Source of the DNA: Flavobacteriales bacterium
Lineage (GTDB): Bacteria > Bacteroidota > Bacteroidia > Flavobacteriales_G > Salibacteraceae
Length of the DNA stretch: 43,785 nt
NCBI GenBank assembly: GCA_020435995.1
Contig: JAGQYO010000015.1
Coordinates: 15,140 to 58,924 of the forward strand
Direction: 5' to 3'
Below, in pieces: positions 3,585-22,701 of the stretch. Numbering within the stretch: the first letter of the stretch is position 1; every line of letters begins with the position of its first letter. Position numbers and translations under genes: made by a program. Below the pieces are notes generated by a model that did no database searches, had not been told where the DNA came from, and saw only the letters and a program-made list of their open reading frames with translations.

Positions 3585-3612
3585 ATTAATGTCTTAAAAT
3601 TTGATCAACGTA

Positions 3613-3620
3613 CAAAGATA
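3613..3620 (-). promoter_or_regulatory. -7 promoter element TATCTTTG for the giant repeat protein
   Basis: On the minus strand 3620-3613 reads TATCTTTG, matching the Bacteroidota -7 consensus TAnnTTTG, with 28 bp to the ATG at 3584. No TTTG -33 element is visible at 17-23 bp upstream. Confidence 0.5.
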
Positions 3621-3739
3621 GCAAGTGCTTTATCATTCTATCTTTTTTCGTCAAATGGAAAGACGGCTAAATTAGAGTAAAGGTTGGTCTTCGTGGACTT
3701 TAATTTACGAATAGCCTCATTCACATCAAAAAGAATTGT

Positions 3740-3747
3740 TTCTTTTG
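3740..3747 (+). promoter_or_regulatory. Possible degenerate -7 element before galE
   Basis: TTCTTTTG differs from TAnnTTTG at one position and lies 27 bp before the galE ATG at 3775, the same spacing as the perfect elements in this window. No -33 element was found. Confidence 0.2.
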
Positions 3748-3774
3748 AAGTTCAATAATTGAAGGCGCAATTTG

Positions 3775-4797
3775 ATGAAGAAAATTCTCATTACTGGTGG
3801 AGCAGGCTACATAGGTTCACATACTATTTTAGAAATACTCGAAAACACAAACTGGGAAGTCGTTTCTGCCGACAATTTTCTGAATTCAAGTGCAAGCACA
3901 TTTGATCGAATCGAAAAAATTTCAGGAAAAAGGATTAGAAATTACAATGTTGATTTAAGGAATCTCATTTCTACAAAAAAGATCTTCGAAGCGGAAGGAA
4001 AAATTGATGGGGTTATACATTTTGCAGCTTTAAAAGCGGTAGGAGAATCCGTTGAAAGACCGCTCTGGTACTACGATAACAATTTCAATAGCCTCTTGAG
4101 CATCTTAAGATGCTGTCGTGATTTTAATGTACCTGATTTAATTTTTTCTTCCTCTTGCTCTATTTACGGCAACGTAGATCACCTGCCAGTGGATGAAAAT
4201 ACGGCCTTGGGAGAAGCCGAATCACCTTATGCTCATACCAAAGCTGTGGGTGAAGACATGCTCAGGCATTTCGTTAAAACAAGCCCTACACGTGTTATCT
4301 CATTAAGATATTTTAATCCTGTTGGGGCCCATAAAACAGGTCAAATAGGAGAAAATCCGATCAACAAACCCAACAATCTTGTGCCAGTAATAACCCAAAC
4401 TGCTGCGGGAATAAATGAAAAAATGTGGGTGCATGGAAATGATTACAAAACACGAGATGGTTCATGCATTCGCGATTACATACACGTAACCGACATTGCT
4501 GATGCTCATATTAAAGCATTGCAATACCTTCAGGGGAATAAAAATTCGCAACCTATCGAATTTTATAACCTTGGAACGGGAAACGGTATTAGTGTATTAG
4601 AAGCTATTGATATGTTTGAGGAGATTTCGGGTCTGAAACTCAACTTTGAAATGGGTCCCAGAAGGCCTGGCGATGTGGAGGCAATTTATAGTGACTCTAC
4701 CTTAGCAAAAAATAGACTTGGGTGGGAAACCAAGTTTGGCCTAAAAGAAATGATGCAAACTGCCTGGAAATGGCAACAGGAAATATCATCCAAATAA
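3775..4797 (+). CDS. galE: UDP-glucose 4-epimerase
   Basis: This cytosolic NAD-dependent extended SDR interconverts UDP-glucose and UDP-galactose, feeding galactose into surface polysaccharides. The 340-residue product starts MKKILITGGAGYIGS, with the GxxGxxG NAD fingerprint at residues 8-14. The SSSCSIYG strand is followed by the catalytic YxxxK as YAHTK near residue 150, then RYFNPVGAH and NLVPVITQTAAG, which are characteristic of GalE rather than other epimerases. Length matches the family (about 338). I chose the ATG at 3775 over the TTG one codon earlier because it sits at the usual distance from the Rossmann strand; GAAGG at 3761-3765 is a weak ribosome site. The next gene begins 10 bp downstream and is also an SDR, so the two probably form one transcript. 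Confidence 0.93.
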   Translation: MKKILITGGAGYIGSHTILEILENTNWEVVSADNFLNSSASTFDRIEKISGKRIRNYNVDLRNLISTKKIFEAEGKIDGVIHFAALKAVGESVERPLWYYDNNFNSLLSILRCCRDFNVPDLIFSSSCSIYGNVDHLPVDENTALGEAESPYAHTKAVGEDMLRHFVKTSPTRVISLRYFNPVGAHKTGQIGENPINKPNNLVPVITQTAAGINEKMWVHGNDYKTRDGSCIRDYIHVTDIADAHIKALQYLQGNKNSQPIEFYNLGTGNGISVLEAIDMFEEISGLKLNFEMGPRRPGDVEAIYSDSTLAKNRLGWETKFGLKEMMQTAWKWQQEISSK

Positions 4798-4807
4798 AAA
4801 AAATTCA

Positions 4808-5731
4808 ATGACTAAAATATTAATTACTGGCGGCGCCGGGTTTATACCAGGTTCATTAGCTGCCGAATTGGCTAAAAACCCAGATTACTTCATCGTTATA
4901 GTCGATAACTTTCTTACGGGTAAGAAAAAAAACATCCCAAAAGGCAAGAATATTCGTTTTATCAAATGTGACGTGAATGACTACCTCGACATTGCTCCAG
5001 TAATGACTTCGCATCGCTTCGATTTCGTATTTCATTATGCCGCCGTGGTAGGAGTAAAACGCACCTTAGCCAATCCCACACTCGTTCTTCACGATTTACA
5101 AGGCATAAAAAATATTCTAAGGTTGTGCAAAAACACTGGGGTGAGAAGGGTGTTTTACTCTTCGAGTTCTGAAGTTTATGGAGAGCCCGTCGAAATGCCT
5201 CAACACGAGCAAACAACCCCGCTCAATTCTAGACTTCCCTACGCCATTGTAAAAAATGCAGGTGAGGCTTTTTGTAAGGCATTTCAAGATGAGTTTGATT
5301 TAGACTACACCATTTTCAGATTCTTTAATACTTATGGCCCCTTGCAAAGTACCGACTTTGTTATGTCAAGATTTTTAAGAGCAGCTTCGAGAAATGAGGC
5401 CATCACCATCTATGGCGACGGGTTGCAAACAAGAACCTTCTGCTATATCAGCGATAACTTAGAGGCGACTATTTCTTGCTTAGAAAAGGACCTATTCGTG
5501 AATGACGTTATCAATATGGGAAACGACCAACAGACTCACATAGTTGATTTAGCCAAACTCCTGATAAAAAAGACAAAATCGAAATCCAAACTTGAGTTTC
5601 TTCCACCATTGGCCGAAGGAGACATGAAAAGAAGGCAACCTGATATCACCAAAATGAAGAAGGTACTGAACCGAGAACTGATATCCTTGGAGGACGGTAT
5701 TGATCTCCTACTCGAAAAAATTAAATTCTAA
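4808..5731 (+). CDS. NAD-dependent epimerase/dehydratase (extended SDR, sugar nucleotide)
   Basis: This 307-residue extended SDR probably acts on a nucleotide sugar, with UDP-glucuronate decarboxylase or a dTDP/UDP-sugar epimerase as nearest types; the substrate cannot be read from sequence. It opens MTKILITGGAGFIPGS, where the usual third glycine of GxxGxxG (residue 14) is a proline followed by glycine 15. The FYSSSSEVYGE strand and YAIVK catalytic motif (YxxxK, near residue 150) are present, as is RFFNTYGPLQ with the phosphate-binding region after it. It follows galE by 10 bp, is probably co-transcribed, and its stop codon overlaps that of convergent rlmH by 4 bp (CTAA). It likely serves surface-glycan precursor synthesis together with the glycan genes further right. 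Confidence 0.85.
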   Translation: MTKILITGGAGFIPGSLAAELAKNPDYFIVIVDNFLTGKKKNIPKGKNIRFIKCDVNDYLDIAPVMTSHRFDFVFHYAAVVGVKRTLANPTLVLHDLQGIKNILRLCKNTGVRRVFYSSSSEVYGEPVEMPQHEQTTPLNSRLPYAIVKNAGEAFCKAFQDEFDLDYTIFRFFNTYGPLQSTDFVMSRFLRAASRNEAITIYGDGLQTRTFCYISDNLEATISCLEKDLFVNDVINMGNDQQTHIVDLAKLLIKKTKSKSKLEFLPPLAEGDMKRRQPDITKMKKVLNRELISLEDGIDLLLEKIKF

Positions 5732-6201
5732 GAATGATGGTATGGCTCACCTCGCATGATGGTGAATGCCCGATAAATTTGCTCCACCAAAAACAACCTG
5801 GCCATTTGATGCGAAAATGTCATTTTGGAAAGCGCAATTTCTTCTGTTGCCTTTTCATGTAATTCTTGATCAAAGCCATAGGCGCCTCCAATTACAAAAA
5901 GCATGTCGGTATTGTGGTGGCTAACCATTTTTTCCAAGTGAATAGAAAATTTTTCACTCGTAAACTGCTTGCCATTTTCATCCAATAAAACCAACCTATC
6001 ATTTGGTTTTAGTTCTTTTAAGATAAGTTCCTTTTCGGCTCTTTTTACTTCCTCAACGCTCAGTTTATTGGTTTTTTTAAGGGCCTCCTTTTCTATCCAG
6101 TCCACTTGAATGTAATGCTTTAGACGTTTTAAATAAACATCAACACCTTCTTTCAAATAAGAATCACTGGTTTTGCCGATACTTACTATTTTCAATTTCA
6201 T
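5728..6201 (-). CDS. rlmH: 23S rRNA (pseudouridine1915-N3)-methyltransferase RlmH
   Basis: RlmH is a SPOUT-class SAM methyltransferase that methylates pseudouridine 1915 in helix 69 of 23S rRNA on the 70S ribosome. The 157-residue product carries the family hallmarks: a GG-YG segment (VIGGAYGFD) for SAM binding in the trefoil knot, the block SKMTFSHQMARLFLVEQIYRA, and the C-terminal GEPYHH with one residue after it. I placed the start at the ATG at 6201 (MKLKIVSIGK), which matches the known family start. A TTG at 6222 would add seven residues and run into the promoter element at 6220-6227. It is convergent with the upstream epimerase and divergent from nadC. Confidence 0.95.
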   Translation of the reverse strand: MKLKIVSIGKTSDSYLKEGVDVYLKRLKHYIQVDWIEKEALKKTNKLSVEEVKRAEKELILKELKPNDRLVLLDENGKQFTSEKFSIHLEKMVSHHNTDMLFVIGGAYGFDQELHEKATEEIALSKMTFSHQMARLFLVEQIYRAFTIMRGEPYHHS

Positions 6202-6219
6202 AAGGGAGAAGAAATCTCC

Positions 6220-6248
6220 CAAAAGTAAAACAATACTTTTGCCTCAAA
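6220..6248 (-). promoter_or_regulatory. rlmH promoter (TTTG-N17-TACTTTTG)
   Basis: On the minus strand TTTG at 6248-6245 is followed after 17 bp by TACTTTTG at 6227-6220, a full Bacteroidota -33/-7 pair, with 18 bp to the rlmH ATG at 6201. It is the only promoter in the window where I find both elements at good spacing. Confidence 0.6.
6234..6241 (+). promoter_or_regulatory. nadC -7 promoter element TACTTTTG
   Basis: TACTTTTG at 6234-6241 lies 18 bp before the nadC ATG and is the exact reverse complement of the rlmH -7 element six bases away, so the two promoters are divergent and overlapping. No -33 element is visible for this direction. Confidence 0.55.
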
Positions 6249-6259
6249 TTGAACGCCCG

Positions 6260-7102
6260 ATGATGAATCGCTCAGTAGAAGAACATATCAAATATTCGTT
6301 GGAGGAAGATATAGGAACAGAAGACCATTCTGCGGCTGCTTGTATTCCTGAAAACTCAGTATCTGCAGCCCAACTTATTATTAAACAAGATGGCGTTTTG
6401 TCAGGTATTTCAGTTGCTAAAAAGGTATTCGAAATCTTGGATTCTGACATTCAATTTGATGTATTGATTGAAGATGGCACACCTATACGGTACGGGCAAA
6501 TTGCTTTTAAAATCAAGGGCCGAGCGCGAAATCTTTTGAAAGGAGAACGACTGGCGCTCAATTACCTTCAGCGAATGAGTGGAATAGCTACCACTACTCA
6601 GAAATATGTAAAGGCCATAAGTGGTACAAGCACTAAAATATTGGACACGCGAAAAACGAGTCCTGGGTTGCGAATTTTTGAAAAATCTGCCGTACTTCAT
6701 GGCGGTGGATACAACCACCGAATGGGCCTTTATGATATGATTATGATTAAAGACAACCACATCGATTTTGCTGGTGGGATAAATGAGGCGATGGATGCAG
6801 TAGCCCGCTACCAAACAGAAAATGGATTGAACCTAGCCGTAGAAGTGGAAGCTCGAGACTTAAATGAGGTAGAACAAATCTTGAAAAACGGGAAGGCAAC
6901 TCGAATTATGTTCGACAATTTCGATTATGCTCATACCCAAAAGGGCGTTGACCTAGTGGACAGGACCATGGAAACTGAATCGAGCGGTGGAATCACCTTG
7001 GAAACCATTAGGGGATACGCGGAATGTGGTGTAGATTTCATTTCGGTGGGTGCACTTACACATCAAATTCAATCACTCGACATGAGTCTAAAAGCCATAT
7101 AA
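6260..7102 (+). CDS. nadC: Nicotinate-nucleotide diphosphorylase (quinolinate phosphoribosyltransferase)
   Basis: NadC converts quinolinate and PRPP into nicotinate mononucleotide, CO2 and pyrophosphate in de novo NAD synthesis. The 280-residue product shows the N-terminal alpha/beta domain with EDIGTEDHS, then the phosphoribosyl- and quinolinate-binding barrel: LDTRKTSPGLR, the block HGGGYNHRMGLYDMIMIKDNH, AVEVEARDLNE, and C-terminal SVGALTHQ. Arg, Lys and His residues in these blocks form the known active site. I start it at the ATG pair 6260/6263; an upstream ATG at 6173 in the same frame lies inside rlmH and upstream of the -7 element, so it is unlikely. Its TAA overlaps the ATG of the next gene by one base (TAATG), suggesting translational coupling. 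Confidence 0.95.
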   Translation: MMNRSVEEHIKYSLEEDIGTEDHSAAACIPENSVSAAQLIIKQDGVLSGISVAKKVFEILDSDIQFDVLIEDGTPIRYGQIAFKIKGRARNLLKGERLALNYLQRMSGIATTTQKYVKAISGTSTKILDTRKTSPGLRIFEKSAVLHGGGYNHRMGLYDMIMIKDNHIDFAGGINEAMDAVARYQTENGLNLAVEVEARDLNEVEQILKNGKATRIMFDNFDYAHTQKGVDLVDRTMETESSGGITLETIRGYAECGVDFISVGALTHQIQSLDMSLKAI

Positions 7103-8076: not shown

Positions 8077-9252
8077 TTACAATCCTCTCAAAAATTCCAT
8101 TCTGGAGTTAAACTTTACCATGTGAGGTGAATCGCTGGCAACGGAATAAAATTCGTGACCCTTTTCTTTCTCCGATTCTTTTAATAAAGACAAATACTCT
8201 TCACCTTCAAAGGCCCGCTCGGTACGCCAAATTCTATAATCAAATCGACCCCGATCATCCAACGATTTCTGAATTTGAATTTTAGGGCTGTCTTTTTCAA
8301 CCGACGACAAAATGTCTGAGTTGATTACCTGAAGCCAGTGAAATACTTTTTCTTCAGATAGGTTTTCCAATATTTCCTCAATTTTACCCACCTTGTTGGT
8401 AAACCCAATGAGTCTCATTTCTTTTAGCCAGGGTGCAAACGAATGAAATGGGTATCCTTTATACTCGTTTGGTTTTAAACTATCATTGGGCGTAAATTCA
8501 ATTGGCTCATCGCCCAAATGGATTCGTGTAATGGATCGTGATTCGCCTATTAACCAAGCTTCCTCTCTTTTCACTGTATCAGGTAGTAAAAAAGCGCTTT
8601 CACCGTCCCTCCAGCAAATTGAAATTTCAGTAGGGGATTCCGCCACTGTTTTATTCCATCGCTCTGCTTCATAGAAATGTATTCCCTCCAAAAAACCTTT
8701 GGTAAGCGGGCCATAAAAGGGCAAGCATTGTAAGTTACTTCCGAGCACTCCTCTCAAAATATAGGGTTGCGTGGGAATTCGTTCCTTTGCTTCGGGCGAA
8801 AATCGTTCGGGGTTTACAAACGTTCCTTTTACACCATTTTTATGCAACACATACACCTGTTCGCTATTGAGCATAAATTCAGGCGGTAAATAATAGTCTG
8901 GAACTTTTCCAAAGAGTTTTTCAGTAGTCCTTATGCCAAATTCAAGATTTTTTTCGAACCCGTATCTGTTGCGCAACAGCGCATTATCATGAGCAAAAGG
9001 CCGAAGGATTAGCTCAAAAATTGAAGGGTTGGCTTTAATAAGTTCAATGCTTTCAGGGTTGAATTGGGCAATGTCGCTCAGTGTTGCACCAGGAATTCCC
9101 AGCGATACTCTTTTATCGAGCTCAACATATAATTTGAGCCACTGGTAGAATACAGAATTTGGTCCCCCTTTAAGCGAATCAAACCAATGGCTGCACTCTA
9201 AACACGATGCATCAGCATTGAAGTTTACTATGTCGATAACCTTATTACCCAT
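8077..9252 (-). CDS. Putative GH57/NodB-like barrel protein in sugar cassette
   Basis: I do not firmly recognise this 391-residue protein. It has no signal peptide or membrane segment, so it is probably cytosolic. Several short segments resemble (beta/alpha)7-barrel glycoside hydrolase family 57 or polysaccharide-deacetylase proteins: an early strand IVNFNADASC with an Asp, LILRPFAHDNALL with a His-Asp, and DYYLPPEFMLN followed by VLHKNGVKGTFV, reminiscent of the PPE region of GH57. I cannot point to the GH57 catalytic Glu with confidence. It is the last gene of the five-gene minus-strand cassette; its ATG shares one base with the stop of the Ldh-family gene. It might hydrolyse, deacetylate or isomerise an intermediate of the same sugar pathway, but this is inference. 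Confidence 0.55.
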   Translation of the reverse strand: MGNKVIDIVNFNADASCLECSHWFDSLKGGPNSVFYQWLKLYVELDKRVSLGIPGATLSDIAQFNPESIELIKANPSIFELILRPFAHDNALLRNRYGFEKNLEFGIRTTEKLFGKVPDYYLPPEFMLNSEQVYVLHKNGVKGTFVNPERFSPEAKERIPTQPYILRGVLGSNLQCLPFYGPLTKGFLEGIHFYEAERWNKTVAESPTEISICWRDGESAFLLPDTVKREEAWLIGESRSITRIHLGDEPIEFTPNDSLKPNEYKGYPFHSFAPWLKEMRLIGFTNKVGKIEEILENLSEEKVFHWLQVINSDILSSVEKDSPKIQIQKSLDDRGRFDYRIWRTERAFEGEEYLSLLKESEKEKGHEFYSVASDSPHMVKFNSRMEFLRGL

Positions 9253-10292
9253 TATTTGATAGCCCTTTTAAAGTTTGGAGAAACTTCTAAAAATTCGTTG
9301 AAAATTCCTGGCAAAATTGGTATTCCAGTTTCAAGCCTAATCGCCATTGTCTTCTTTTCTGGGTCTCCGGGCGCCATCACCTCTTGACCTTCAAGTGTCG
9401 GCATTTTTCGAATGCGATCTACCATGTCTTGCATGTTTTCTACAAACGTGTTCAAAGGCAAAAACTTGGTTGGGTCTATTACCATAAAAAAATGTCCCAC
9501 TTTTCTTTTCGCCTCTATGGGTGAATCATACATTGCCATAAGGTCCTTGCTGATAAAACCATTGGCCAATATGGCGCAAAACACGTCTACCATCATACCC
9601 AAACCAAATCCTTTGTAATCACCGGCTGGGGCCAAACTTCTTGCAATATGTGGGTCTGTTGTAGGTTGGCCTTCAGCATCAAAAGCCCAATGATCGGGAA
9701 TGCTGGCATCCTCCCTTCGGTAGTTTTTTATTTTATTCCACGACACAAGCGATGTAGCCATATCCAAGCAAAATGGCTCTTCGTTTTTAAGTGGAGTGGT
9801 AAAACAAATAGGATTGGTTCCGAAAAACGCCTTGGTACTTCCAGTGGCTTTAACTAGCGCATCAGCATTGGTAAACGCCATACCAATCATGTTGCGCTCA
9901 GCGGCTTGCAATGCGAAATAAGCTGCGGCTCCAAAATGGGTGGAGTTGCGCACACTCACAGCAGCCATGCCCGTTTCAGCGGCCAAGTCGCAGGCTTTGT
10001 TAATTGCATCAGAGCCTACATGATGGCCAAACGCATCGATTGCATCTATATATCCAACAGAAGGGGCGGTTTGGGTAAATGTAAACGGAGGATTGTTATT
10101 GATTCTACCAGCATCTACTGCCCTACAATAATGTGGAAACAAATGAATACCATGAGAATCCACACCCCTAAGCGAAGTCTGGATCATGGAGGAAGTAACA
10201 TGATGAACGGCAGGTTCACATACGTTTTTTGAAGAAAATGCATGTGCCATTTCTTCTTTTAAGATCTGATGATCGAGATGAATTATTTCCAT
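9252..10292 (-). CDS. Ldh family oxidoreductase (malate/L-lactate dehydrogenase superfamily)
   Basis: A 346-residue NAD(P)H-dependent reductase of the Ldh_2 superfamily (malate/L-lactate, ureidoglycolate, 2,3-diketogulonate and piperideine-2-carboxylate reductases), which reduce 2-keto acids or imines next to a carboxylate. Visible family motifs are RGVDSHGI with the conserved His near residue 46, VRNSTHFGAA with the catalytic His near residue 117, FFGTNPI, DMATS and a C-terminal GDYKGFGLGMMVD. It is in an operon with a CMP-sugar cytidylyltransferase. Nonulosonic acids are themselves 2-keto acids, so a role in modifying such a sugar is attractive but unproven. It overlaps the upstream Gfo/Idh/MocA gene by 10 bp and the downstream gene by 1 bp. 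Confidence 0.87.
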   Translation of the reverse strand: MEIIHLDHQILKEEMAHAFSSKNVCEPAVHHVTSSMIQTSLRGVDSHGIHLFPHYCRAVDAGRINNNPPFTFTQTAPSVGYIDAIDAFGHHVGSDAINKACDLAAETGMAAVSVRNSTHFGAAAYFALQAAERNMIGMAFTNADALVKATGSTKAFFGTNPICFTTPLKNEEPFCLDMATSLVSWNKIKNYRREDASIPDHWAFDAEGQPTTDPHIARSLAPAGDYKGFGLGMMVDVFCAILANGFISKDLMAMYDSPIEAKRKVGHFFMVIDPTKFLPLNTFVENMQDMVDRIRKMPTLEGQEVMAPGDPEKKTMAIRLETGIPILPGIFNEFLEVSPNFKRAIK

Positions 10293-11464
10293 TTTATTTC
10301 TTCAATTTCTGGAACATTAACCCATGCTCCATTTTTATTTAAACTTTGATTTACAGCATCAATCACGGCGGTAGAAACCAAGGAACTTAGTAGATCAGGT
10401 CTTGTTTTACCTAGTTTTTCGCTTGTAGTTTTACCATTGTTTAGGTCTACAATATCCGTTAAAAATTGAGCTATACTTTTATGTCCATATCCTTGGAACT
10501 GAATAAGACCATCGGCATCAGCCAAATATTCAGAAAAGTATGGATTCAATTGCTGGATACCCTCTGATTCGGACACGAACTCCACTCCTCTGTTTTTCTG
10601 GTCTATTTCTAACCGTCCTTTGGTACCCACTACCTTATACCGCTGGTCCGACATAGCCGAAGAAGTATTTGGATCAATCCAGTTGGTGTTGAAATTCGAA
10701 ACCACCCTGCTGCCATCGGAAGGATTTTCCCACTCCAACATCACATGAACCGAATCCCAGCTTTCAACTCCTTTTTCCCGCAACACTCCATTAGTTCCGA
10801 GTGCGCTGCATCTCAGCGGTTTGTAGCCTGTGAGGAAGTAAAACAAATCGACGTAATGAACTCCCAAATATTGAAAGATGTTGGATTTATCAGACCATCC
10901 CTTAAACGTTTCCAAAGGAATGGAAATACGCTGGCTGTAACCCACCTCGTAATAAAGCACTTGGCCCAATTTCCCCTCTTGAATATATCTTCTGGTAATT
11001 AAATTGGTTTCATCCCACCGTTTGTGAAATTCCACCGCAGCGTACGTATCAGTAGCCTTTTGAGCGTTCAACAGTTCAACACCTTCATTCAAAGTGGGTG
11101 TTAAAGGTTTTACCACAAGCGACTTAACTCCATTATCCAGCAAAGCCTTGGTGTATTGAAAATGCAAATGATCGGGTATGGAAACGATGGCACAATCAAA
11201 TTTATTTGCGCTCAAATAATTGGTGAGTTCCGCCGGAGAAGCCAACGATTGATAATTTGCCTTCAGGTTTGAACCTATGGTCTTGTTAATTCGAGCAACA
11301 GACTCTGCCACCACTGAAGCATTATTCTGGCTCCTAGCCACAACTGTAACTTGCTCAACATTAGCGCTTTTTGAATACTGTGCGATGGAAGATAGAATCG
11401 TTCCGGTGCCTGTATTGTTTCGGCCAGTGACGTACATTCCGGCCCCTATGATAAGTATTTTCAC
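10283..11464 (-). CDS. Gfo/Idh/MocA family oxidoreductase
   Basis: A 393-residue NAD(P)-dependent sugar oxidoreductase. The N-terminal Rossmann domain begins MKILIIGAGMYVTGR with a somewhat unusual insertion after GAGM (VTGRNNTGTGTILSS). The domain includes VSIPDHLHF and the EKP-like motif as VVKPLTP, where Lys-Pro are conserved. The C-terminal domain has AVEFHKRW and YLGVHYVDLFYFLTG, where the GxHxxD-type His and Asp are expected near the substrate. The substrate cannot be read from sequence; the neighbours (cytidylyltransferase, Ldh-family reductase, UDP-sugar epimerase) point to biosynthesis of an unusual sugar acid. It overlaps the following gene by 10 bp and is 50 bp downstream of the cytidylyltransferase. 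Confidence 0.88.
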   Translation of the reverse strand: MKILIIGAGMYVTGRNNTGTGTILSSIAQYSKSANVEQVTVVARSQNNASVVAESVARINKTIGSNLKANYQSLASPAELTNYLSANKFDCAIVSIPDHLHFQYTKALLDNGVKSLVVKPLTPTLNEGVELLNAQKATDTYAAVEFHKRWDETNLITRRYIQEGKLGQVLYYEVGYSQRISIPLETFKGWSDKSNIFQYLGVHYVDLFYFLTGYKPLRCSALGTNGVLREKGVESWDSVHVMLEWENPSDGSRVVSNFNTNWIDPNTSSAMSDQRYKVVGTKGRLEIDQKNRGVEFVSESEGIQQLNPYFSEYLADADGLIQFQGYGHKSIAQFLTDIVDLNNGKTTSEKLGKTRPDLLSSLVSTAVIDAVNQSLNKNGAWVNVPEIEEIKWK

Positions 11465-11514
11465 TCCCTAATTTTGGGGGCTAAAATACAATAAATGAAA
11501 ACCGAGAAGTTGAC

Positions 11515-12210
11515 CTATTTGAATACACTTCGCGCAATAAGTAAGTCGCGCTCCGAATCAATATCAATAACTTCATCGGGATTCATGATGTAGGGAAAAA
11601 GTTTAGATCCGGTCATCGATTCTAAGTCGTAAATCGTGGATGGTTTGGTTACGTCAATCACACAATTGTAAAAATACATGGGAGGCAAATCTTGTCTTCT
11701 AAGCAGAAATGGCTCGGGGTGTTTGTGCTTCATGATGGGGTCGAGGTAGCCATCTTTATCTATTTCAAAAGTTCGGTACGGGTGCATATTAGGTTCCGAA
11801 ACAGACCTAACCGAATGCGCTTCGGGGTGCATGAGCAATAATTCAACAGCTTCATCAATCCACTCCGGCTTTCTATAAGGAGCGGTAGGTCGCAAATGCA
11901 CCACAATATCCGATTCGAAATTTTCATTTTCACGAAGCCAGTCAAGCGCATGTTTAAATACTGGATAATCCAATACGTGGTCTTCGGCCAATTCGGCGGG
12001 GCGAAGGAAGGGCACCTCGGCGCCATATTTTCGGCTAACTTCAGCTATTTCTTCATCGTCGGTGGATACAATCACACGTGTAACTATTTCGCTTTCTAAG
12101 GCATGAATAATAGAATGCGCAACCAGGGGCTTTCCTTGAAAGTCAACAAGGTTTTTTCTTTTAATTCCCTTTGATCCGCCTCGTGCGGGTATGATAGCAA
12201 CCGTGTTCAT
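11515..12210 (-). CDS. Acylneuraminate-type cytidylyltransferase (CMP-sugar synthase)
   Basis: This 231-residue enzyme belongs to the NeuA/KdsB fold that transfers CMP from CTP to a 2-keto-3-deoxy sugar acid, giving CMP-sialic acid-like donors for glycosyltransferases. The nucleotide-binding signature IPARGGSKGIKRKN is at residues 7-20. VIVSTDDEEIAEVSRKYGAE, HLRPTAPYRKPEWID (counterpart of the NeuA LQPTSPLR block) and the C-terminal VIDIDSERDLLIA are also present. It groups better with NeuA/PseF/LegF-type enzymes than with KdsB, but the sugar is unknown. No synthase (NeuB type) is in the window. It starts one base after the stop of the upstream UDP-sugar epimerase gene, so the two are almost certainly co-translated. 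Confidence 0.88.
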   Translation of the reverse strand: MNTVAIIPARGGSKGIKRKNLVDFQGKPLVAHSIIHALESEIVTRVIVSTDDEEIAEVSRKYGAEVPFLRPAELAEDHVLDYPVFKHALDWLRENENFESDIVVHLRPTAPYRKPEWIDEAVELLLMHPEAHSVRSVSEPNMHPYRTFEIDKDGYLDPIMKHKHPEPFLLRRQDLPPMYFYNCVIDVTKPSTIYDLESMTGSKLFPYIMNPDEVIDIDSERDLLIARSVFK

Positions 12211-12211
12211 G

Positions 12212-13165
12212 TTATACTTCTACGTTTAACCACTCCGCAAAAGCCTTTAAACCTTCTTCGATGGAAGTGGTGGGTTGGTAATTCAATAATTTTTGAGCTT
12301 TGGCAATATTGGCATAAGTGATATCCACATCACCGGGTTGCATGGGCATGGGTTCAATTTTGGCTTCTTTTCCAAGGGTCGCTTCAATAGCCGCAATCAA
12401 TTCATTCAGTTTTACTGGGCTGTTGTTTCCCAAATTGATCACCTCAAAACATGGCGAATGCCCCAATACATAATCCATTGAAGAAATTACTCCCGAAACT
12501 ATATCGTTGATAAAAGTATAATCGCGAGCTGTGCTCCCGTCGCCAAACATTTGAATAGGTTCGCCGTTCGATATTTTTTTTATGAATTTATGGATCGCTA
12601 AATCTGGCCTTTGACGAGGGCCATACACAGTAAAAAATCGAAGGTTTACAATGTCAATTTTTTCGAGATGGTGGTAAGTGAAATTCATCATTTCGCAGCC
12701 TCTTTTGGTAAACGCATACGGAGAAATGGGCTGATCTAAGGACTCGGTTTCGGTAAAAGGAATATTTGGGCAATTGCCATATACCGAACTTGAGGATGCA
12801 AAAACCATTTTTTTAATTTCCCTTTGCTTCAATAGCTCTAGTAAGTTGTTGGTACCCGTATAGTTTGCATCGATATATGCCTTGGGGTTTTCTATTGAGG
12901 GTCTAACGCCTGCTTTGGCCCCTAGATGAATCAATACATCAAATAAAGGAAGGTGTTGAAGTTTTGCTTTATCCTTAAAAAAATCGATTTCATAAAAATC
13001 AAATTTTTCATGTTGTAAGCTTAATTGGAGATTTTCTTCCTTTACCGTTCGGTTATAGAATGGATCAAAATTGTCAATTCCAATAACCGAATGACCCATT
13101 GCCAAGAGTCTTTCACTCACATGAGAACCAATAAATCCAGCTGCTCCGGTTAATAGAATTCGCAT
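12212..13165 (-). CDS. NAD-dependent UDP-sugar epimerase, UDP-glucuronate 4-epimerase-like
   Basis: First gene of the five-gene sugar cassette, encoding a 317-residue extended SDR. The Rossmann fingerprint is GAAGFIGSH at residues 7-15; FASSSSVYGN carries the catalytic Ser region; YAFTKRGCE supplies the YxxxK pair. LRFFTVYGPRQRPDLAIHKF and GDGSTARDYTFINDIV closely match UDP-glucuronate 4-epimerases and WbpP-like UDP-N-acetylglucosamine 4-epimerases. The IDNFDPFYNRTVKEENL segment after the first strand favours the UDP-glucuronate 4-epimerase group. Its product, UDP-galacturonate or a related sugar, would go into surface polysaccharide. A one-mismatch -7 element (TATCTTCG) lies 25 bp upstream of the ATG at 13165. 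Confidence 0.87.
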   Translation of the reverse strand: MRILLTGAAGFIGSHVSERLLAMGHSVIGIDNFDPFYNRTVKEENLQLSLQHEKFDFYEIDFFKDKAKLQHLPLFDVLIHLGAKAGVRPSIENPKAYIDANYTGTNNLLELLKQREIKKMVFASSSSVYGNCPNIPFTETESLDQPISPYAFTKRGCEMMNFTYHHLEKIDIVNLRFFTVYGPRQRPDLAIHKFIKKISNGEPIQMFGDGSTARDYTFINDIVSGVISSMDYVLGHSPCFEVINLGNNSPVKLNELIAAIEATLGKEAKIEPMPMQPGDVDITYANIAKAQKLLNYQPTTSIEEGLKAFAEWLNVEV

Positions 13166-13372: not shown

Positions 13373-16300
13373 CTACTTGATAATAAATTTCTCAATAAAA
13401 GTCTCACCATCAAGGGTGATTTTTACAACATATACTCCAGCTCCATCGTCCATAAACACATTGTAATAATTGCTCCCAGCTTTTAATTCCAAGGTTCTTT
13501 TTCGAATGGCCTGGCCCAAACTTCCAGTAATTTCCAGATCCACCTCTTTTTCACTTTGAGAAAGAATCACGATGTTAAATTGTCCATTGTTAGGATTAGG
13601 CCAAAGACGAAACGGTTTTCCGCAATTGGATACAGTTACATCTGTTGTTACACTACCCGAACATCCACTAGAATCCACAACCTTTAAGTCAAAAGACTTG
13701 GTACCGTATGGCAATTTTGGTGGAATAATTACATATCGGTTGTTTGCCGTATCTGAATTCCAATAGTAATATTTGAAGGTTTCCTCGCTCTGCAAGCGTA
13801 AAGTGTCAGTTGAACAAATCGTCGTTTTGCCACTAATTGTAGGGTTCGGGGTTTGGTAAACCTCCACCATAAGAGAGTCAGCTCCAGTACAGCCTTCGTT
13901 GGAAACCAAGATATAATTTACCTTATTATTTCTTGGAACCCTTAAATCAATTCTATCGCTGTTCGTGTGATTAACTAAATAGGTTCCTCCTACAGGTTTG
14001 GCAATGTTTAATACAATAGAACTATCGTAAGAACATAGAACTGGCAATGAATCAAATGTAATTTCAGGAATTTGGTAAATTAAATACGGCGCGCTCATAG
14101 TATCTGATCCGCAATGATTTGTGATTGAATAATACAATGTATTTGCCCCTGCCAATCTAGACGAAGAGACCAGAACAGAATCGAAGTAAACATTTGTTCC
14201 AAAATATTTTCCACCGAGAGGAAATCCTCCTTTAAGTATTATTGAATCACCATTGCCGCAAAAATTAGATGTGCTTAACGAGTCAACTTTAAGAATACTA
14301 TCGACACTTAACAATTTAGTTACACTATCCATGCAGCCTTTAGTACTTGTAAATTGATAGGTAATTTGATAAGATCCATAACCCGTAGATGGTGAAAAAA
14401 TTGAATCATTTGACACACCCACTCCGGAATATATTCCACCCGATGGGCTACCCTCCTTTAAAAGATAATCGGATTGATGTTTACACAAAATTGGGAAAGA
14501 GCCGAGAATAGGGGTCACCACTGAATCAATCCGAACCTTGTGAACAATAGAGTCTTTACAGCCATTTGTGCTTTTAAACATATAGCTTAAGACAGTTGTG
14601 TCAGAAACAAGCATGCTAGCTCGAAAGAGAGTATCGTTAACCACTCCGTTTCCGAAGTACTTTCCACCTGATGGTGAACCCACTTTTAAAACAAAGTCAG
14701 GTGTGTTCCTACAAACTACCCCTAACGAAGAGATATTTACCAATGGAGTTTGAAGTACCACAACAGTGTCGCTAATGGAGTCTGTGCAAGCGTGTGAATC
14801 GGTAAATTGATATTGAATGTGGTGTGTGCCAATTGTACCTTTTGGGTTAAACACGCTACCCGAAACATACATTCCACTATAAATGCCTCCTGATGGAATC
14901 CCATGATTCAAGTTCAAGCTATCCGAACTACAAATTGACCCAAATGACAATAATCTTAAAACTGGGACCGTATCAACCCTTACTGCCTGAAAAGTAGAAT
15001 CTGAACATCCAAATTGATTGGTATAAATATATCGAACTGTATCAAAACCCAGTGATAGTGCATTTGGCTGATAAGCACTTCCAAAAACCCCATTTCCTCT
15101 GAAATGGCCACCCAATGGAGAGCCCGAAAGCTGCGTTGATGCCGAGTTTTGACAAATGGAATCTAAAAATAAAAACGTTGGGTTTGTGATCGAGTCTACC
15201 CTAATCGAATCATATTTCGTTTCAACACAACCATTGCCTCCTGTGTAGGTGTACAATATTGTTTTCATTCCTAGGCCAGCCAAGGTGGGTACAAAGTAGT
15301 TACCTCGAATACCAATTCCTGATAAAACGCCCCCAATTGGTGAGCCTGTTAATAGAACTGAATCCGCATTTATACAAATACTATCCCCTCCCATATTAAA
15401 GGTGACTATTGGTAAAGAATCAACATAGATGGTTTGATTTACAGAATCTTTGCATCCATGAGAATTGCTTAAAACGTATTTTATTACATTGATTCCGAGT
15501 GCTCCCAAACTTGGATTGAACAAAGAATCATTGACTACACCCGCCGCATAATACCGCCCTCCTGTTGGCTGCCCATAATTGATATTAACCGGATTTGAAT
15601 TCACACACACATTTGAAATACTTGAATAGGATACCAATGTGACTGAATCTAATTTCAAGATTCTTTGAAGACTATCGGCGCATCCTTTTCCATCTGTGAA
15701 AATGTATCGAATATTATGACTTCCTAAAGCTTGATTAGCAGGGTTAAAACCAGAAGCCATATTGCTATTCAACTTATAAATACCGCCAATTGGGGTACCT
15801 CCACTAAAGGTAATGCTATCCGAGTTTGCACAAATTGAATCAATCATTGTAAAGCTAACAAGTGGCACCGAATCCACTACAATGATTTTGCTTACCGTAT
15901 CTGAACAACCATTGCCATCGGTATATCGATAATTTATGGAATGACTGCCTGCCCCGGCTGCGGCTGGATTGAACTTGCCTGCACTGATATGGCTCCCAAA
16001 ATAGCTTCCACCACTTGGACTTCCACCGCTTAAGCTCAGCAGACCTGCATTGCTGCATATTGGGCTTGGATTGGTGAGTGTTACGATGGGTTGAGGTCTA
16101 ATTATCAGATTTTTAGTTGTCGAATCGGACATACATCCATTCGTAAATTTATACTTAACCGAATGAGTCCCTACTCCTAACGATGCTGGATTTATTACCA
16201 CCATAGGTACGCCATTTACGTAATATGTTCCACCTGCCGGTAATCCGCCAAATACAGGAAAGGAAGGGTCTGTTGAACAAACGCTAGGGTAACTAGAAAG

Positions 16301-17962
16301 GCTAATTACAAAAGTTGTATCAACCTGAATGAATATGTCGGCGGTATCTGAACATCCCAAACTGTCTACCTTTAAATAAACCTTGTGATTTCCGGTGCCA
16401 ACTATGGTTGGATAAAACCGATTTGAAAATACGGTTGGGCCAAAAAATGTGCCTGACGAATGACTGCTGTAAGGAGCAAGGTTGATCCAAAAAGTAGAGA
16501 CACATTGTGGAGGAATAGCAGAAATAGAAGCACTGGGTCTTTGGGAAACTACAATAACGGAAGTATCTGAAGCAGAGCAAGCGTTGAGATCGGTGTATGT
16601 ATAAGTAATCACATGGGAGCCAATGCCCGCGCTATTTGGACTAAAAGTTCCACTTGAGACGCCTGAACCTGTATAAGTTCCTTGAGTCGGCGAGCCACCA
16701 TAAAGGGCAAAAGACCCACTACCAGAACAAATGGGAGGTAAAGATGCAAAGCTGACGACTGGAACTGAATCAACCTTAACACTTGTGGTATCCGAAGTAG
16801 CACAATTGTTACTATCAGTTGCAGCATAATAAACGGAATGAGTTCCCAATCCCGCAGTCGACGCGTTAAACTTACCAGAACTGACACCTACCCCTGAAAA
16901 CACACCTCCTGGTGGCGTTCCAGCAAGCGTTAATAGAGGACTGTTTAAACATTGGCTCGAATAAATCCCAGCACTGGCTTGCGCCGGAACAACCACTTTG
17001 GTATTGGCTGTGTCTTTCCAAACACAAGAATTTGAATCCGTGTAGGTGTAAAACACCGCGTAATTTCCCGCACTCAAATTTTTTGGCGAGAATATGCTGT
17101 CTGTAAGACCTGGCCCACTATAAGAGCCACCCTTGGGTATGGCTCGAAGCGTATCTTTTGATGCATTGGTGCAATAAAGGGAATCTAAATTAGATATGGT
17201 TGGATTGACAGTGTATTTGGAGCAGGTGTCACAAGTATTCTGTTGGTAAACCGCACTAATTTGGCTCGCATTAAGGGCACATCTATAGATTTTTACATCG
17301 TCGATTTTACCATGAAAATATTGACTATTATTATATCGAGCTCCTATGTAAAAAAAACTCGAACTAGCGTACCCCGCATTGAGCCCGGTTAATGAAGTCG
17401 AATCTACCGCAGTCCCATTTACATACAATACCGCTTTTGAATTTGTACGTGTCATTGCAATGTGGTACCAATTATTTAATGCAGGAAGGGAACCAACCGA
17501 CTTATTTCCAACTGTACCATTAACATCTCTTGTACTCAATGCAAACCCGTAAAGACCAAGCCCACTGTGATTGACGATGTTAATCATTTGATCTAACCCA
17601 AAGCCGCCAATGTTTAAAATACATGTCGCTTGCAGGTTCCCAGGATTAGTTTGAGGATATACCCACAAAGCATAAGTGTAGTTATTTAACTTAAACGAAT
17701 CCACAGGTACCGAAATTTTCGCATTTGATCCATTAAAATAATAGGCTGAGTTTGAGCTACTAAACCTATCTGAAGTACGAACTGCGTTTGATATGGTACC
17801 ATTGAAACCATTCCCGGATAAATCTTTAGCGCTACCATTAAAACAGTACTTGGCAAATTCTTTTGAACAACTCTGGCTTTTTGACTGATTAGCACAAAAC
17901 AGTAACAAAACGGCCGTGATGTAAAATAAAAAAGAATCTAATGATTGACTTGACGTTTTCAT
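13373..17962 (-). CDS. T9SS-secreted LamG plus PKD-like repeat surface protein
   Basis: A complete 1529-residue extracellular protein. Residues 1-30 are a signal peptide (hydrophobic FYITAVLLLFCANQSKS). Residues about 32-240 form a laminin-G/concanavalin-like domain (Laminin_G_3 type), ending in HGKIDDVKIYRCALNASQI. Residues about 250-1380 hold about 15 divergent PKD-like repeats of roughly 70-76 residues, each with a Cys near its start (SICSN, QCVST and so on) and another in a C-terminal GCxD or ACxD motif. Residues about 1452-1529 are a type A T9SS sorting domain: LWPNPNNGQFNI, then LEITGSLGQ, GVYVVKI and the terminal FIEKFIIK. The protein should be exported by Sec, then across the outer membrane by T9SS and anchored. 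It is probably an adhesin or glycan-binding surface protein; the ligand is unknown. No -7 element was found directly upstream. Confidence 0.92.
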   Translation of the reverse strand: MKTSSQSLDSFLFYITAVLLLFCANQSKSQSCSKEFAKYCFNGSAKDLSGNGFNGTISNAVRTSDRFSSSNSAYYFNGSNAKISVPVDSFKLNNYTYALWVYPQTNPGNLQATCILNIGGFGLDQMINIVNHSGLGLYGFALSTRDVNGTVGNKSVGSLPALNNWYHIAMTRTNSKAVLYVNGTAVDSTSLTGLNAGYASSSFFYIGARYNNSQYFHGKIDDVKIYRCALNASQISAVYQQNTCDTCSKYTVNPTISNLDSLYCTNASKDTLRAIPKGGSYSGPGLTDSIFSPKNLSAGNYAVFYTYTDSNSCVWKDTANTKVVVPAQASAGIYSSQCLNSPLLTLAGTPPGGVFSGVGVSSGKFNASTAGLGTHSVYYAATDSNNCATSDTTSVKVDSVPVVSFASLPPICSGSGSFALYGGSPTQGTYTGSGVSSGTFSPNSAGIGSHVITYTYTDLNACSASDTSVIVVSQRPSASISAIPPQCVSTFWINLAPYSSHSSGTFFGPTVFSNRFYPTIVGTGNHKVYLKVDSLGCSDTADIFIQVDTTFVISLSSYPSVCSTDPSFPVFGGLPAGGTYYVNGVPMVVINPASLGVGTHSVKYKFTNGCMSDSTTKNLIIRPQPIVTLTNPSPICSNAGLLSLSGGSPSGGSYFGSHISAGKFNPAAAGAGSHSINYRYTDGNGCSDTVSKIIVVDSVPLVSFTMIDSICANSDSITFSGGTPIGGIYKLNSNMASGFNPANQALGSHNIRYIFTDGKGCADSLQRILKLDSVTLVSYSSISNVCVNSNPVNINYGQPTGGRYYAAGVVNDSLFNPSLGALGINVIKYVLSNSHGCKDSVNQTIYVDSLPIVTFNMGGDSICINADSVLLTGSPIGGVLSGIGIRGNYFVPTLAGLGMKTILYTYTGGNGCVETKYDSIRVDSITNPTFLFLDSICQNSASTQLSGSPLGGHFRGNGVFGSAYQPNALSLGFDTVRYIYTNQFGCSDSTFQAVRVDTVPVLRLLSFGSICSSDSLNLNHGIPSGGIYSGMYVSGSVFNPKGTIGTHHIQYQFTDSHACTDSISDTVVVLQTPLVNISSLGVVCRNTPDFVLKVGSPSGGKYFGNGVVNDTLFRASMLVSDTTVLSYMFKSTNGCKDSIVHKVRIDSVVTPILGSFPILCKHQSDYLLKEGSPSGGIYSGVGVSNDSIFSPSTGYGSYQITYQFTSTKGCMDSVTKLLSVDSILKVDSLSTSNFCGNGDSIILKGGFPLGGKYFGTNVYFDSVLVSSSRLAGANTLYYSITNHCGSDTMSAPYLIYQIPEITFDSLPVLCSYDSSIVLNIAKPVGGTYLVNHTNSDRIDLRVPRNNKVNYILVSNEGCTGADSLMVEVYQTPNPTISGKTTICSTDTLRLQSEETFKYYYWNSDTANNRYVIIPPKLPYGTKSFDLKVVDSSGCSGSVTTDVTVSNCGKPFRLWPNPNNGQFNIVILSQSEKEVDLEITGSLGQAIRKRTLELKAGSNYYNVFMDDGAGVYVVKITLDGETFIEKFIIK

Positions 17963-20260: not shown

Positions 20261-20351
20261 CCAAAATAGCATTCGAATGTTGATTAAAATTAACGTCCAT
20301 TAAATACCCTATCAGATTAAATACGTTGTTTTGATTTTTCAAAAAGTAAGA

Positions 20352-21860
20352 ATGGGCATTATTCACAAACAAGGTTTTAACTCCACTCTATTAAACTATT
20401 TGGGGGTTGGTTTTGCATACGCTAACCTCATCTTTGTTTTACCCTACTTTTTGGATTTAACCGAGATAGGATTGATGCGCCTCATAATCGAAATAGCTTC
20501 ACTGTTAATGCTCGTTTTTCAGCTAGGCGCCCCATACTTGGTGATTCGTTTTTTTCCCTTCTACAAAGATTCTGACCTAGATACTCGATCATTCTATACG
20601 CTTTCATTGGGTATTGCGGGAATTGGAATAATTCTAATGCTTCTATTCTATATCCTATTCAGATCTCCTTTTATTACCTATTTCTCGGCCAAATCTGAGC
20701 TGATATCGGATTATGAAATGGTCTTTCTTTCTATGGCGATCGGGCTAATTCTTTTTAGTTTATTCGAACGAATTTTCGGAAGTAAAAAAATAGTAATTCT
20801 TCCAACCTTCATTAGAGAAATAATAAATAGGGTAGGCTTGTCAGTCGTTGTTGTTCTTATCGGATTAGGAATATATAGCTTTAACGATGGAATGGTGGTC
20901 TGGGTAGGCATCTTTTTTGTAGGTCCATTGGTTCTCCTATATTTATATAAAAAACAATTTGGCCTCCGATTGGCATTTTCTAAAAACGTTTGGAATAAAG
21001 TAAATTACAAAAAATACATAAGCTACTCTGGTATTGTTACAATGGGTGCAATCGGAGGTGGCCTAAGCCTGAAAATTGATATGTTGATGACAGGTTCTAT
21101 GTTGGGATTAGAACAACTTGGGATATATGCCACAATGGTTTACATAGCAACTGTAATTGAGGTTCCTAAACGAGCATTAACTCAAATTTCTGATCCATTT
21201 ATTTCAGAGTACTATGCAGACGGAAGGATTGACAAAATCGAAGAATTATACTCCAAAAATAGTATGGCGCTTCTCGTGTTCGGGCTCCTACTTTTTCTTT
21301 TAATCTATTCAGGCCTACCCTATTTATTTGAAATCATGCCTAAAGGCGATCAATTTGCGACTGGTATCAATGTGTTTTTAATTATTGCCGGAGTCAAAAT
21401 CCTTAGCTTGTTAGGTGGAATAGCGAATCAAATACTTCTAAACTCAACGGAAGCTTGGGTAAGCTCAATGACTATCATTATACTAGCTATAATGTCCATA
21501 GGGCTCAATTATTTGTTGATTCCAATTTATGGTTTGGAAGGTGCCGCATTTGCAACGCTTATTTCAGTCGGAGTCAATTCCATTCTTATCATGATGCATG
21601 TTTTTATCAAATTTAAGATTCACCCCTTTTGCCGAGAAATGATATATCTCTCAGCCATCACTTCAGTATTATTTGCCGTTGTATTATTTTTTCCAAAAAT
21701 TGCCAACCCTTATTTAGGATTGTTATTATCATCTGCATTAATTAGCCTCTTGTATGGCATTTTGGTTTACTACTTAAAACTTTCCGAAGATGTTAATGTG
21801 CTGATAGAGAATATAATAGTCAGAGGAAAAATCTTCTTCAAAAATTCTAGGTATCAATAA
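20352..21860 (+). CDS. Wzx-like polysaccharide flippase (MOP superfamily)
   Basis: A 502-residue polytopic inner-membrane protein with about 12-14 hydrophobic helices, typical of the oligosaccharide flippase/Wzx branch of the MOP superfamily that moves undecaprenyl-linked glycans to the periplasmic face. The N-terminal stretch LLNYLGVGFAYANLIFVLPYFL and the mid-protein GLEQLGIYATMVYIATVIEVPKRA segment fit this family. The later LNSTEAW and YGLEGAAFATLISVGVN segments also fit. I start at the ATG at 20352; a TTG seven codons earlier (20331) is possible but less likely. It is divergent from the methyltransferase and convergent with the MptE-like gene, overlapping it by 14 bp. It probably exports the glycan made by the surrounding genes. 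Confidence 0.87.
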   Translation: MGIIHKQGFNSTLLNYLGVGFAYANLIFVLPYFLDLTEIGLMRLIIEIASLLMLVFQLGAPYLVIRFFPFYKDSDLDTRSFYTLSLGIAGIGIILMLLFYILFRSPFITYFSAKSELISDYEMVFLSMAIGLILFSLFERIFGSKKIVILPTFIREIINRVGLSVVVVLIGLGIYSFNDGMVVWVGIFFVGPLVLLYLYKKQFGLRLAFSKNVWNKVNYKKYISYSGIVTMGAIGGGLSLKIDMLMTGSMLGLEQLGIYATMVYIATVIEVPKRALTQISDPFISEYYADGRIDKIEELYSKNSMALLVFGLLLFLLIYSGLPYLFEIMPKGDQFATGINVFLIIAGVKILSLLGGIANQILLNSTEAWVSSMTIIILAIMSIGLNYLLIPIYGLEGAAFATLISVGVNSILIMMHVFIKFKIHPFCREMIYLSAITSVLFAVVLFFPKIANPYLGLLLSSALISLLYGILVYYLKLSEDVNVLIENIIVRGKIFFKNSRYQ

Positions 21861-22701
21861 CCTCCTTCAACCCCACCCTAGGAAAAACATTAAGTAGGCC
21901 TACTTCACTAGCATTGGCTATTTGAATGTTCTGGCTTATAGCGTAGTTATCTATCATATTGAGTTGCCGCCAAAGCTTATAATGCTGAAAATAAATATCT
22001 CCTGACCTGAGCATTGAATCTTCTAAATCCTTTTCTGCCTGGTTTCTTGTAATTTTAGAAACACCATACCACCTTACATGATCGCGCCTTCCCTTGCCTG
22101 ACGTGAAATCAACAATTTGGCTTAGGTCCATCCCAAGGATATAAATTTCGCTAAATCCTAAGTACACTGCTGTCATCAAACATTGTGTAATTACAGTGGG
22201 AACGTTCATAATTCGCTTCGAAATATCGCAGTCGGTGGTAGTTTTAAACAATGGATTTAAACCCTGTTCATGATAAAATGTCCGCTCTCCCATCTTTGTT
22301 TCTCGCTCTATGAGGTATTTTGTGTTTTTTCCGAAAAACAATAGACAATCGGCGGGTAGTCGTGTTTCCATATCCCTAATCCACTCCACCCAATCTTGAT
22401 CGAATTGAGCCGATTGATACTTGGGTACAACCACATGAAATTTTGGTTTTAATTCTCCAATTTCATCGTGCATGTGAAAATTATTTTGGGTCATAATATT
22501 CTGACCGTAAAGCAGGCTAAGGTTTTCTTGTTTAATGGAAGGGCCCGAACCCAGAATAAAACATTTCTGCCCCTTGTATTTTCCCTTGAGTTTTTTATTC
22601 CTTGCCAACACCGAATCTGGAAAAAAATTTAAAATAGAAAACAGCGTGTGGCTCATGCTTTTTCTGATCAAATAGGGTGTTAAATTAAGTACGTTATCCA
22701 T
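21847..22701 (-). CDS. MptE-like/DUF115 protein, possible GT42-like glycosyltransferase
   Basis: A 284-residue soluble protein. Near residue 50 it has KCFILGSGPSIKQENLSLL, followed by NNFHMHDEIGELKPKFHVV. Near residue 170 it has VPTVITQCLMTAVYLGFSEIYILGMDLS. This pair of blocks is shared by the MptE-like/DUF115 family (PF01973) and by GT42 sialyltransferases of the CST type, which use the GxGPS loop and the Y-LGMD/GxDF strand to bind CMP. In surface-glycan loci such proteins are probably transferases rather than pterin enzymes. The window also encodes a CMP-sugar synthase, so a CMP-sugar transferase role is plausible but unproven. It ends inside the flippase gene (14-bp overlap, opposite strand). 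Confidence 0.65.
   Translation of the reverse strand: MDNVLNLTPYLIRKSMSHTLFSILNFFPDSVLARNKKLKGKYKGQKCFILGSGPSIKQENLSLLYGQNIMTQNNFHMHDEIGELKPKFHVVVPKYQSAQFDQDWVEWIRDMETRLPADCLLFFGKNTKYLIERETKMGERTFYHEQGLNPLFKTTTDCDISKRIMNVPTVITQCLMTAVYLGFSEIYILGMDLSQIVDFTSGKGRRDHVRWYGVSKITRNQAEKDLEDSMLRSGDIYFQHYKLWRQLNMIDNYAISQNIQIANASEVGLLNVFPRVGLKEVIDT

Follow-up and report, generated by a model that had tools for sequence, protein, structure and literature searches.

The window considered here is a stretch of 43,785 nucleotides from a Flavobacteriales bacterium of the Salibacteraceae (GenBank assembly GCA_020435995.1, 3.76 Mb and 98.9% complete; contig JAGQYO010000015.1, positions 15,140 to 58,924; contig C65 in our numbering). 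On its minus strand lies a compact cassette of five genes, which is tentatively read here as a pathway that makes a 2-keto sugar acid (an ulosonic acid) by oxidation or dehydration and activates it with cytidine monophosphate (CMP), without a NeuB-type condensation. This sequence-derived reading is based on which genes are present, on how they are conserved and group in trees, on the active-site residues that are kept and on the absence of NeuB from other genomes that carry the cassette. To our knowledge, the well-known CMP-activated ulosonic acids (sialic, legionaminic and pseudaminic acids and 3-deoxy-D-manno-octulosonic acid, Kdo) are all built by condensation of a sugar with phosphoenolpyruvate. 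An original prediction, made from the letters of the window, had named no characterised pathway with exactly this set of enzymes, and indeed our literature search turned up none. The members of the cassette are, from first to last gene:

12212..13165, minus strand: short-chain dehydrogenase/reductase (SDR) epimerase, resembling GalE and UDP-glucuronate 4-epimerase; gene 1, an optional member; Pfam Epimerase, 177.7 bits
11515..12210, minus strand: CMP-sugar synthetase of PF02348 (the cytidylyltransferase, CTPT); CTP_transf_3, 82.7 bits against a cut-off of 22.6
10283..11464, minus strand: Gfo/Idh/MocA oxidoreductase (GFO); GTG start; N- and C-terminal GFO_IDH_MocA domains; Lys119 (in VKP) and His203 kept
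9252..10292, minus strand: Ldh_2 family oxidoreductase (LDH2); Pfam Ldh_2, 354.7 bits
8077..9252, minus strand: GH57-like protein; last gene; weak match to Pfam Glyco_hydro_57, 23.8 bits against a cut-off of 21.2

The five open reading frames and their junctions (GH57-like/LDH2 -1 bp, LDH2/GFO -10, GFO/CTPT +50, CTPT/SDR +1) were recovered at the coordinates first given for them, and the assignments to the SDR, cytidylyltransferase, Gfo/Idh/MocA, Ldh_2 and GH57 families hold in a Pfam search. The SDR matches both Epimerase and GDP_Man_Dehyd in Pfam, and its top NCBIfam matches are GalE, LegB and TviC, each under its cut-off. None of the five proteins reaches an NCBIfam cut-off in a profile search; every gene of the cassette belongs to a known family and has no named function.

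Conservation and spread of the cassette

Searched with the Gfo/Idh pair as query, 84,980 species genomes yielded at least 14 loci. In the nearest cassette genome to the host (G328, Crocinitomicaceae SAT141, PAVO01000027.1) all five genes are kept at 69-92% identity (locus L010) and the flanks are shared, namely nadC, a YihY-like gene and an adhesin of the type IX secretion system type. Further away, the order CTPT-GFO-LDH2-GH57 recurs in a metagenome-assembled genome (MAG) of the Betaproteobacteria (L016; identities 67, 55, 56 and 47%) and in a distant Bacteroidetes MAG (L019; 62, 48, 54 and 35%), with junctions that overlap by 4-25 bp in both. Because the five genes are kept with the same flanks in the Crocinitomicaceae genome, and the four-gene core in distant MAGs, the arrangement is beyond what chance would give. 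The original prediction had named a failure of the genes to co-occur outside this strain as evidence against itself; the core does co-occur, across phyla. The five-gene unit proposed at that time is conserved as a set but is better described as a four-gene core (CTPT-GFO-LDH2-GH57) with an optional SDR.

Other loci are partial or rearranged. GFO, LDH2, the GH57-like gene and the SDR stand together in L018 (labelled Chitinophaga), with a CTPT 6 kb away; CTPT-GFO-GH57 without LDH2 is found in L021, from a MAG labelled Klebsiella pneumoniae (a doubtful label); and two further cassette genomes, with incomplete or reordered sets (L138 and L139), came from a search among relatives of the L018 genome. 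A homologue of the SDR adjoins the cassette in L010 (80%), L018 (51%), L138 (52%) and L139 (55%), and is not adjacent to it in L016, L019 and L021, so that this gene accompanies the cassette in some Bacteroidota only.

The cassette is also rare. The host alone has the GFO among 296 genomes of its phylum, two of 42 genomes of its order have it, and the GH57-like protein was found in the query genomes only, among 398 genomes of their phylum. Such a rare, patchy and cross-phylum spread points to horizontal transfer. No relative of the GH57-like protein was found on plasmids or viral contigs, and no DNA match in 5,426 Escherichia coli genomes. Plasmid matches to the Gfo/Idh protein (Rhizobium and Neorhizobium, about 25-27%) were set aside, as the two that were examined adjoin sugar ABC-transporter genes and not sugar-activation genes; a plasmid CTPT of Azospirillum (48%) lies in another cluster, which has neither GFO nor LDH2.

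The enzymes and their predicted activities

The cytidylyltransferase carries the best-supported part of the proposal. The CTPTs of the cassettes are 57-92% identical to one another (57-68% between distant hosts); against 68 other CTPTs their identity never exceeds 48%. In the tree they form a clade with support of 100/99, apart from the KdsB clade (100/100), and KdsB models give the CTPT of the window 42-54 bits, far under their cut-offs. A clustering with plain KdsB, which the original prediction had said would count against it, was therefore not observed. The closest NCBIfam model is PseF (TIGR03584), whose equivalog cut-off of 205.7 bits is not reached (170.3 bits). At the level of residues, R172, Q173, D216 and D218 align with R165, Q166, D209 and D211 of the CMP-N-acetylneuraminic acid (Neu5Ac) synthetase of Neisseria meningitidis (1eyr), in which Arg165 has been tied to the sugar carboxylate by docking and mutation (PMC2901514). 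With PF02348 above its cut-off and both the Mg2+ ligands and the carboxylate-binding Arg present, the protein is a putative CMP-ulosonate synthetase; the kept aspartates and the Arg165 equivalent support transfer of CMP to a 2-keto acid sugar, and we regard this activity as quite probable. Where the N. meningitidis enzyme has Gln104, the CTPT of the window has Arg107 (in HLRPTAPYR). The idea that this Arg points to a second carboxylate on the substrate was dropped, since NeuB-linked phage enzymes carry Arg there as well and the position is uninformative on the substrate.

The GFO has the Rossmann and C-terminal domains of the Gfo/Idh/MocA family with its active-site Lys and His (K119 and H203, invariant among homologues); an Asp is usual four residues before the His in this family, and here the residue is Tyr199. 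Its AlphaFold2 model (mean predicted local distance difference test, pLDDT, 89.3) finds 1,5-anhydrofructose reductase, inositol and levoglucosan dehydrogenases and glucose-fructose oxidoreductase as best matches in Foldseek, and near folds include an L-glucose dehydrogenase with bound gluconolactone. The start of the protein, GAGMYVTGR, had been described as unusual, but the pattern G-x-G-x-Y-V-x-G is invariant in 11 homologues and there is no oddity in it.

The LDH2, the only Ldh_2 enzyme of the host genome, scores above the Ldh_2 cut-off, and its catalytic H119 is invariant in five cassette LDH2 sequences. The Arg of the HGxxR motif of AllD and YiaK is Leu here; this was rejected as a marker, as the solved structure 1z2i and L027 also have Leu. 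The curated model of AllD (ureidoglycolate dehydrogenase) is not reached (233.9 bits against a cut-off of 496.2), nor is the family-level ureidoglycolate dehydrogenase model (238.2 bits, cut-off 356). The LDH2 enzymes of cassettes and phages group tightly and the branches of E. coli AllD, YiaK and HcxB are far longer, although the deep forks are weakly supported; the grouping with catabolic enzymes that could have spoken against the original prediction did not appear for the Ldh_2 enzymes tested, within that limit.

The direction of the LDH2 reaction is best considered together with dehydratases found in related loci. In L021, the cassette without LDH2, a GD_AH protein follows the GH57-like gene after 16 bp and is closest to galactarate dehydratase (378.5 bits against a cut-off of 730.85); it is the only such protein of that genome, and none of eight other genomes tested has one. 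In the distant locus L026 (GFO 46%, CTPT 43%) there is an enolase-superfamily protein whose best model is talarate/galactarate dehydratase. Both dehydratase families are known from the breakdown of sugar acids to 2-keto-3-deoxy acids, and LDH2 enzymes can turn 2-hydroxy acids into 2-keto acids and back. Because two unrelated dehydratase families adjoin GFO and CTPT in this way, LDH2 and the dehydratase may be alternative makers of the 2-keto acid. The original prediction of a CMP-activated ulosonic acid thus keeps its activation half, which is backed by the CTPT clade and the active-site residues, but not the reduction of a 2-keto acid by Ldh_2, since oxidation of a 2-hydroxy acid fits the dehydratase swap better.

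The last protein of the cassette has no NCBIfam match of any kind. Its model (pLDDT 81.2) gives by VIA-align a Z of 25.9 over 327 residues to a GH57 amylopullulanase, and about 14-16 to CE4 deacetylases, so the modelled protein has the (beta/alpha) barrel fold of GH57 amylases. Six sequences compared all keep E125 (LPPEF) and D216 (WRDGES); by position along the chain these lie near E123 and D214 of the Thermococcus litoralis enzyme, which is presumably where the GH57 catalytic residues are to be expected. The CE4 metal motifs (TFDD, HxxxH) are absent: there is one conserved His (H88) and no DD motif, and D14 is lost in L019. The label 'NodB-like' once attached to this protein thus falls away with the missing CE4 Asp-His-His motif, and a role as a lactonase, which had also been entertained, is weakened by the fold.

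NeuB, phage-borne versions and rival explanations

The original prediction reported no NeuB-type synthase, the enzyme that condenses a sugar with phosphoenolpyruvate, in the window. There is indeed none there, but a search of the genome finds one on another contig (C187), in a cluster with a separate cytidylyltransferase (a PF02348 match). Around it are a LegC-like aminotransferase, a LegG/NeuC-like epimerase, a NeuD-like protein and a UDP-sugar dehydrogenase, and we take the whole, with its legI/NeuB gene, to be of the legionaminic type. Gene names on C187, C22 and C180 come from reading the translations, except for the NeuB and PF02348 matches. This NeuB was considered as the missing step of the cassette and rejected, as it is paired with its own CTPT; the CTPT of the window, the fourth PF02348 enzyme of the host genome, is for the same reason without an evident NeuB partner. 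On C22, what we take to be KdsB and KdsA stand beside KdnA- and KdnB-like genes (L013, C22:17000-28000, at 2438-6509), likely an 8-amino-Kdo pathway of the host. Separately, L014 (C180:6000-15433) has a second KdsB-like gene with genes for an HpcH aldolase, a Gfo/Idh protein, a SIS protein, a dehydroquinate-synthase-like protein and a D-2-hydroxyacid dehydrogenase, another possible unusual CMP-sugar set.

In six cassette genomes outside the family of the host (G337, G339, G340, G342, G746 and G747), the search for NeuB gave no match in five, and the weak match of the sixth (G340, E 8.8e-8) has KdsA as its best relative and is not a true NeuB. The Crocinitomicaceae genome has two NeuB homologues, on contigs other than that of the cassette. 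In contrast, of 80 viral loci that hold a CTPT, 59 have a NeuB homologue within the retrieved DNA. It is on balance likely that the cassette pathway is independent of NeuB.

Reduced versions are found in viruses. Six IMG/VR contigs from T4-like phages (L124-L128 and L134) encode a GFO (43-44%) and an LDH2 (53-55%); in L124-L127 a PF02348 protein follows GFO-LDH2 with a 4 bp overlap, and the sequences of L128 and L134 end inside LDH2. In L125 the set (3818-6676) lies among clamp-loader, ClpP-like, exonuclease and glycosyltransferase genes; these neighbours match the PHROG clamp loader, head maturation protease and exonuclease families, and no PHROG family matches its GFO, LDH2 or CTPT. Among annotated phage records, LDH2 matches are 27-35% identical and several resemble host DNA. 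Five further viral contigs (L129-L133) combine the LDH2 subfamily of the cassette with acetolactate-synthase-like thiamine pyrophosphate enzymes, DJ-1/PfpI proteins, an HpcH aldolase and SDRs, with a CTPT in one, which suggests that phages have a sugar pathway of a branched or unusual kind. Many other IMG/VR phage contigs (L044-L082) carry NeuB, a cytidylyltransferase and LegC-like aminotransferases, and nonulosonic acid genes seem to be common in viruses.

Several points weigh against a NeuB-free synthesis by the cassette. The cassette genomes are mostly MAGs, so the absence of NeuB could partly be missing sequence. Distant GFO homologues (37-43%) occur in genomes with NeuB, some in the same locus (L023 and L027), so that the GFO step is not exclusive to such a route. 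The dehydratase swap is seen in one cassette (L021) and one distant locus (L026, from a genome with NeuB), and the phage CTPTs are only 22-25% identical to that of the window. The Gram-negative hosts, moreover, probably all make Kdo, which could therefore be remodelled. In such a remodelling, GFO and LDH2 would oxidise and reduce an ulosonic acid that is already made (Kdo or legionaminic acid), so that it is epimerised or oxidised, and the CTPT would then re-activate it. A precedent for phage-borne CMP-sugar chemistry exists in EpaA (a CTP_transf_3 domain fused to an aldo-keto reductase) and EpaB (an SDR), which are prophage-borne and modify an existing NeuB product, converting pseudaminic acid to 8-epi-pseudaminic acid (PMC12053666). 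The likeness extends to the combination of a cytidylyltransferase with dehydrogenases, to carriage by phages (the phage contigs above bear GFO-LDH2-CTPT) and to action on a CMP-type acid sugar, and the host has genes for both legionaminic-type sugars and Kdo. However, EpaA and EpaB are of other families and act on a finished product, the six genomes without a true NeuB leave Kdo as the likely precursor, and the sugar-acid dehydratase of L021 has no place in an epimerisation; we regard remodelling as rather unlikely.

It is less likely still that the cassette serves a NeuB-type nonulosonic acid pathway encoded elsewhere, with GFO and LDH2 making a rare precursor and the CTPT acting as its LegF or PseF. 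The legI/NeuB gene of the host, PseF as the nearest model and the distant GFO homologues near NeuB in L023 and L027 would all suit this explanation, but the NeuB cluster of the host has its own CTPT, the CTPT of the window stays under the PseF cut-off and the six other cassette genomes are without NeuB. Very improbable, finally, is a catabolic function of the oxidoreductases, in the breakdown of sugar acids or purines, with the CTPT as an incidental neighbour: the LDH2 does resemble ureidoglycolate dehydrogenase at the family level, but the overlapping arrangement with a CTPT recurs in two phyla and in phages, no catabolic NCBIfam cut-off is reached and the E. coli catabolic enzymes lie on very long branches outside the close cassette and phage cluster.

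Among known systems, the nonulosonic acid clusters (neuABC, leg, pse) are likewise compact and include a CMP-sugar synthetase of PF02348, with an SDR and, near some cassettes, flippase and MptE-like neighbours; unlike them, the cassette and the six genomes are without NeuB, LegI or PseI, and have GFO, LDH2 and the GH57-like protein instead. The 8-amino-Kdo (Kdo8N) pathway (KdnA/KdnB with KdsB) also oxidises an ulosonic acid before CMP activation, but it uses an iron alcohol dehydrogenase and an aminotransferase, whose homologues form a separate locus in the host. Relatives of the dehydratases of uronate and galactarate catabolism replace or accompany LDH2 in related loci, whereas the link here is to a CMP-sugar synthetase and not to an aldolase/kinase pathway, and the dehydratase matches are under curated cut-offs.

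A proposed route and its possible destination

If the cassette does make and activate its own keto acid, the steps could run as follows, with order, substrate and the part of the GH57-like protein placed by inference. The SDR, where present, would supply an epimerised nucleotide sugar, e.g. UDP-galacturonic acid. The GH57-like protein might, as a speculation by analogy, hydrolyse an alpha-linked nucleotide sugar and so free the sugar from its alpha-glycoside, the role of NeuC, LegG and PseG in nonulosonic acid pathways. The GFO would oxidise this sugar, in the simplest case at C1 to give a lactone or an acid, which is a guess within a known range, as this is one among several activities of the Gfo/Idh family. 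By oxidising a 2-hydroxy acid the LDH2 would then form the 2-keto acid; where LDH2 is missing, a galactarate-dehydratase-like enzyme would yield a 2-keto-3-deoxy acid. Once the keto acid has cyclised, the CTPT would place CMP on its C2 hydroxyl, the best-supported step, and a transferase, possibly an MptE-like protein, would use the CMP-sugar.

Candidate partners lie 6-10 kb upstream of the cassette, where methyltransferase, flippase-like and MptE-like genes are found:

20331..21860, plus strand: flippase-like protein (Polysacc_synt); loosely linked candidate partner
21847..22701, minus strand: MptE-like protein (PF01973); loosely linked candidate CMP-sugar transferase

The L019 cassette has a relative of the flippase next to it (28% over 489 residues) and the L016 cassette has a weaker one, and the MptE-like protein is 25% identical over 251 residues to one just downstream of the L016 cassette. 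We take it that PF01973 once covered the Maf flagellin transferases, which use CMP-nonulosonates. In the window the linkage is loose because an adhesin gene intervenes, and the two genes are the sole hint of a surface-glycan destination for the product. On the minus strand, the cassette region lies between genes for very long adhesin-like proteins rich in repeats (1-3584 and 13373-17962), and L010 has similar flanks.

Taken more broadly, the cassette may represent a class of NeuB-independent pathways in Bacteroidota and Proteobacteria, with a reduced form in T4-like phages, in which a 2-keto acid is made from a common hexose or uronate by Ldh_2 oxidation or a galactarate-type dehydratase; this generalisation is somewhat doubtful. 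If it is true, rare-sugar biosynthesis would gain the CMP activation of a keto acid that comes from oxidation or dehydration. Such a pathway would be a candidate origin for the hexulosonic acids of capsules, e.g. the 4-deoxy-2-hexulosonic acid of E. coli K3 (named in the title of a work cited in PMC10433991), and the phage-borne sets would suggest that phages bring this keto-acid CMP-activation chemistry with them.

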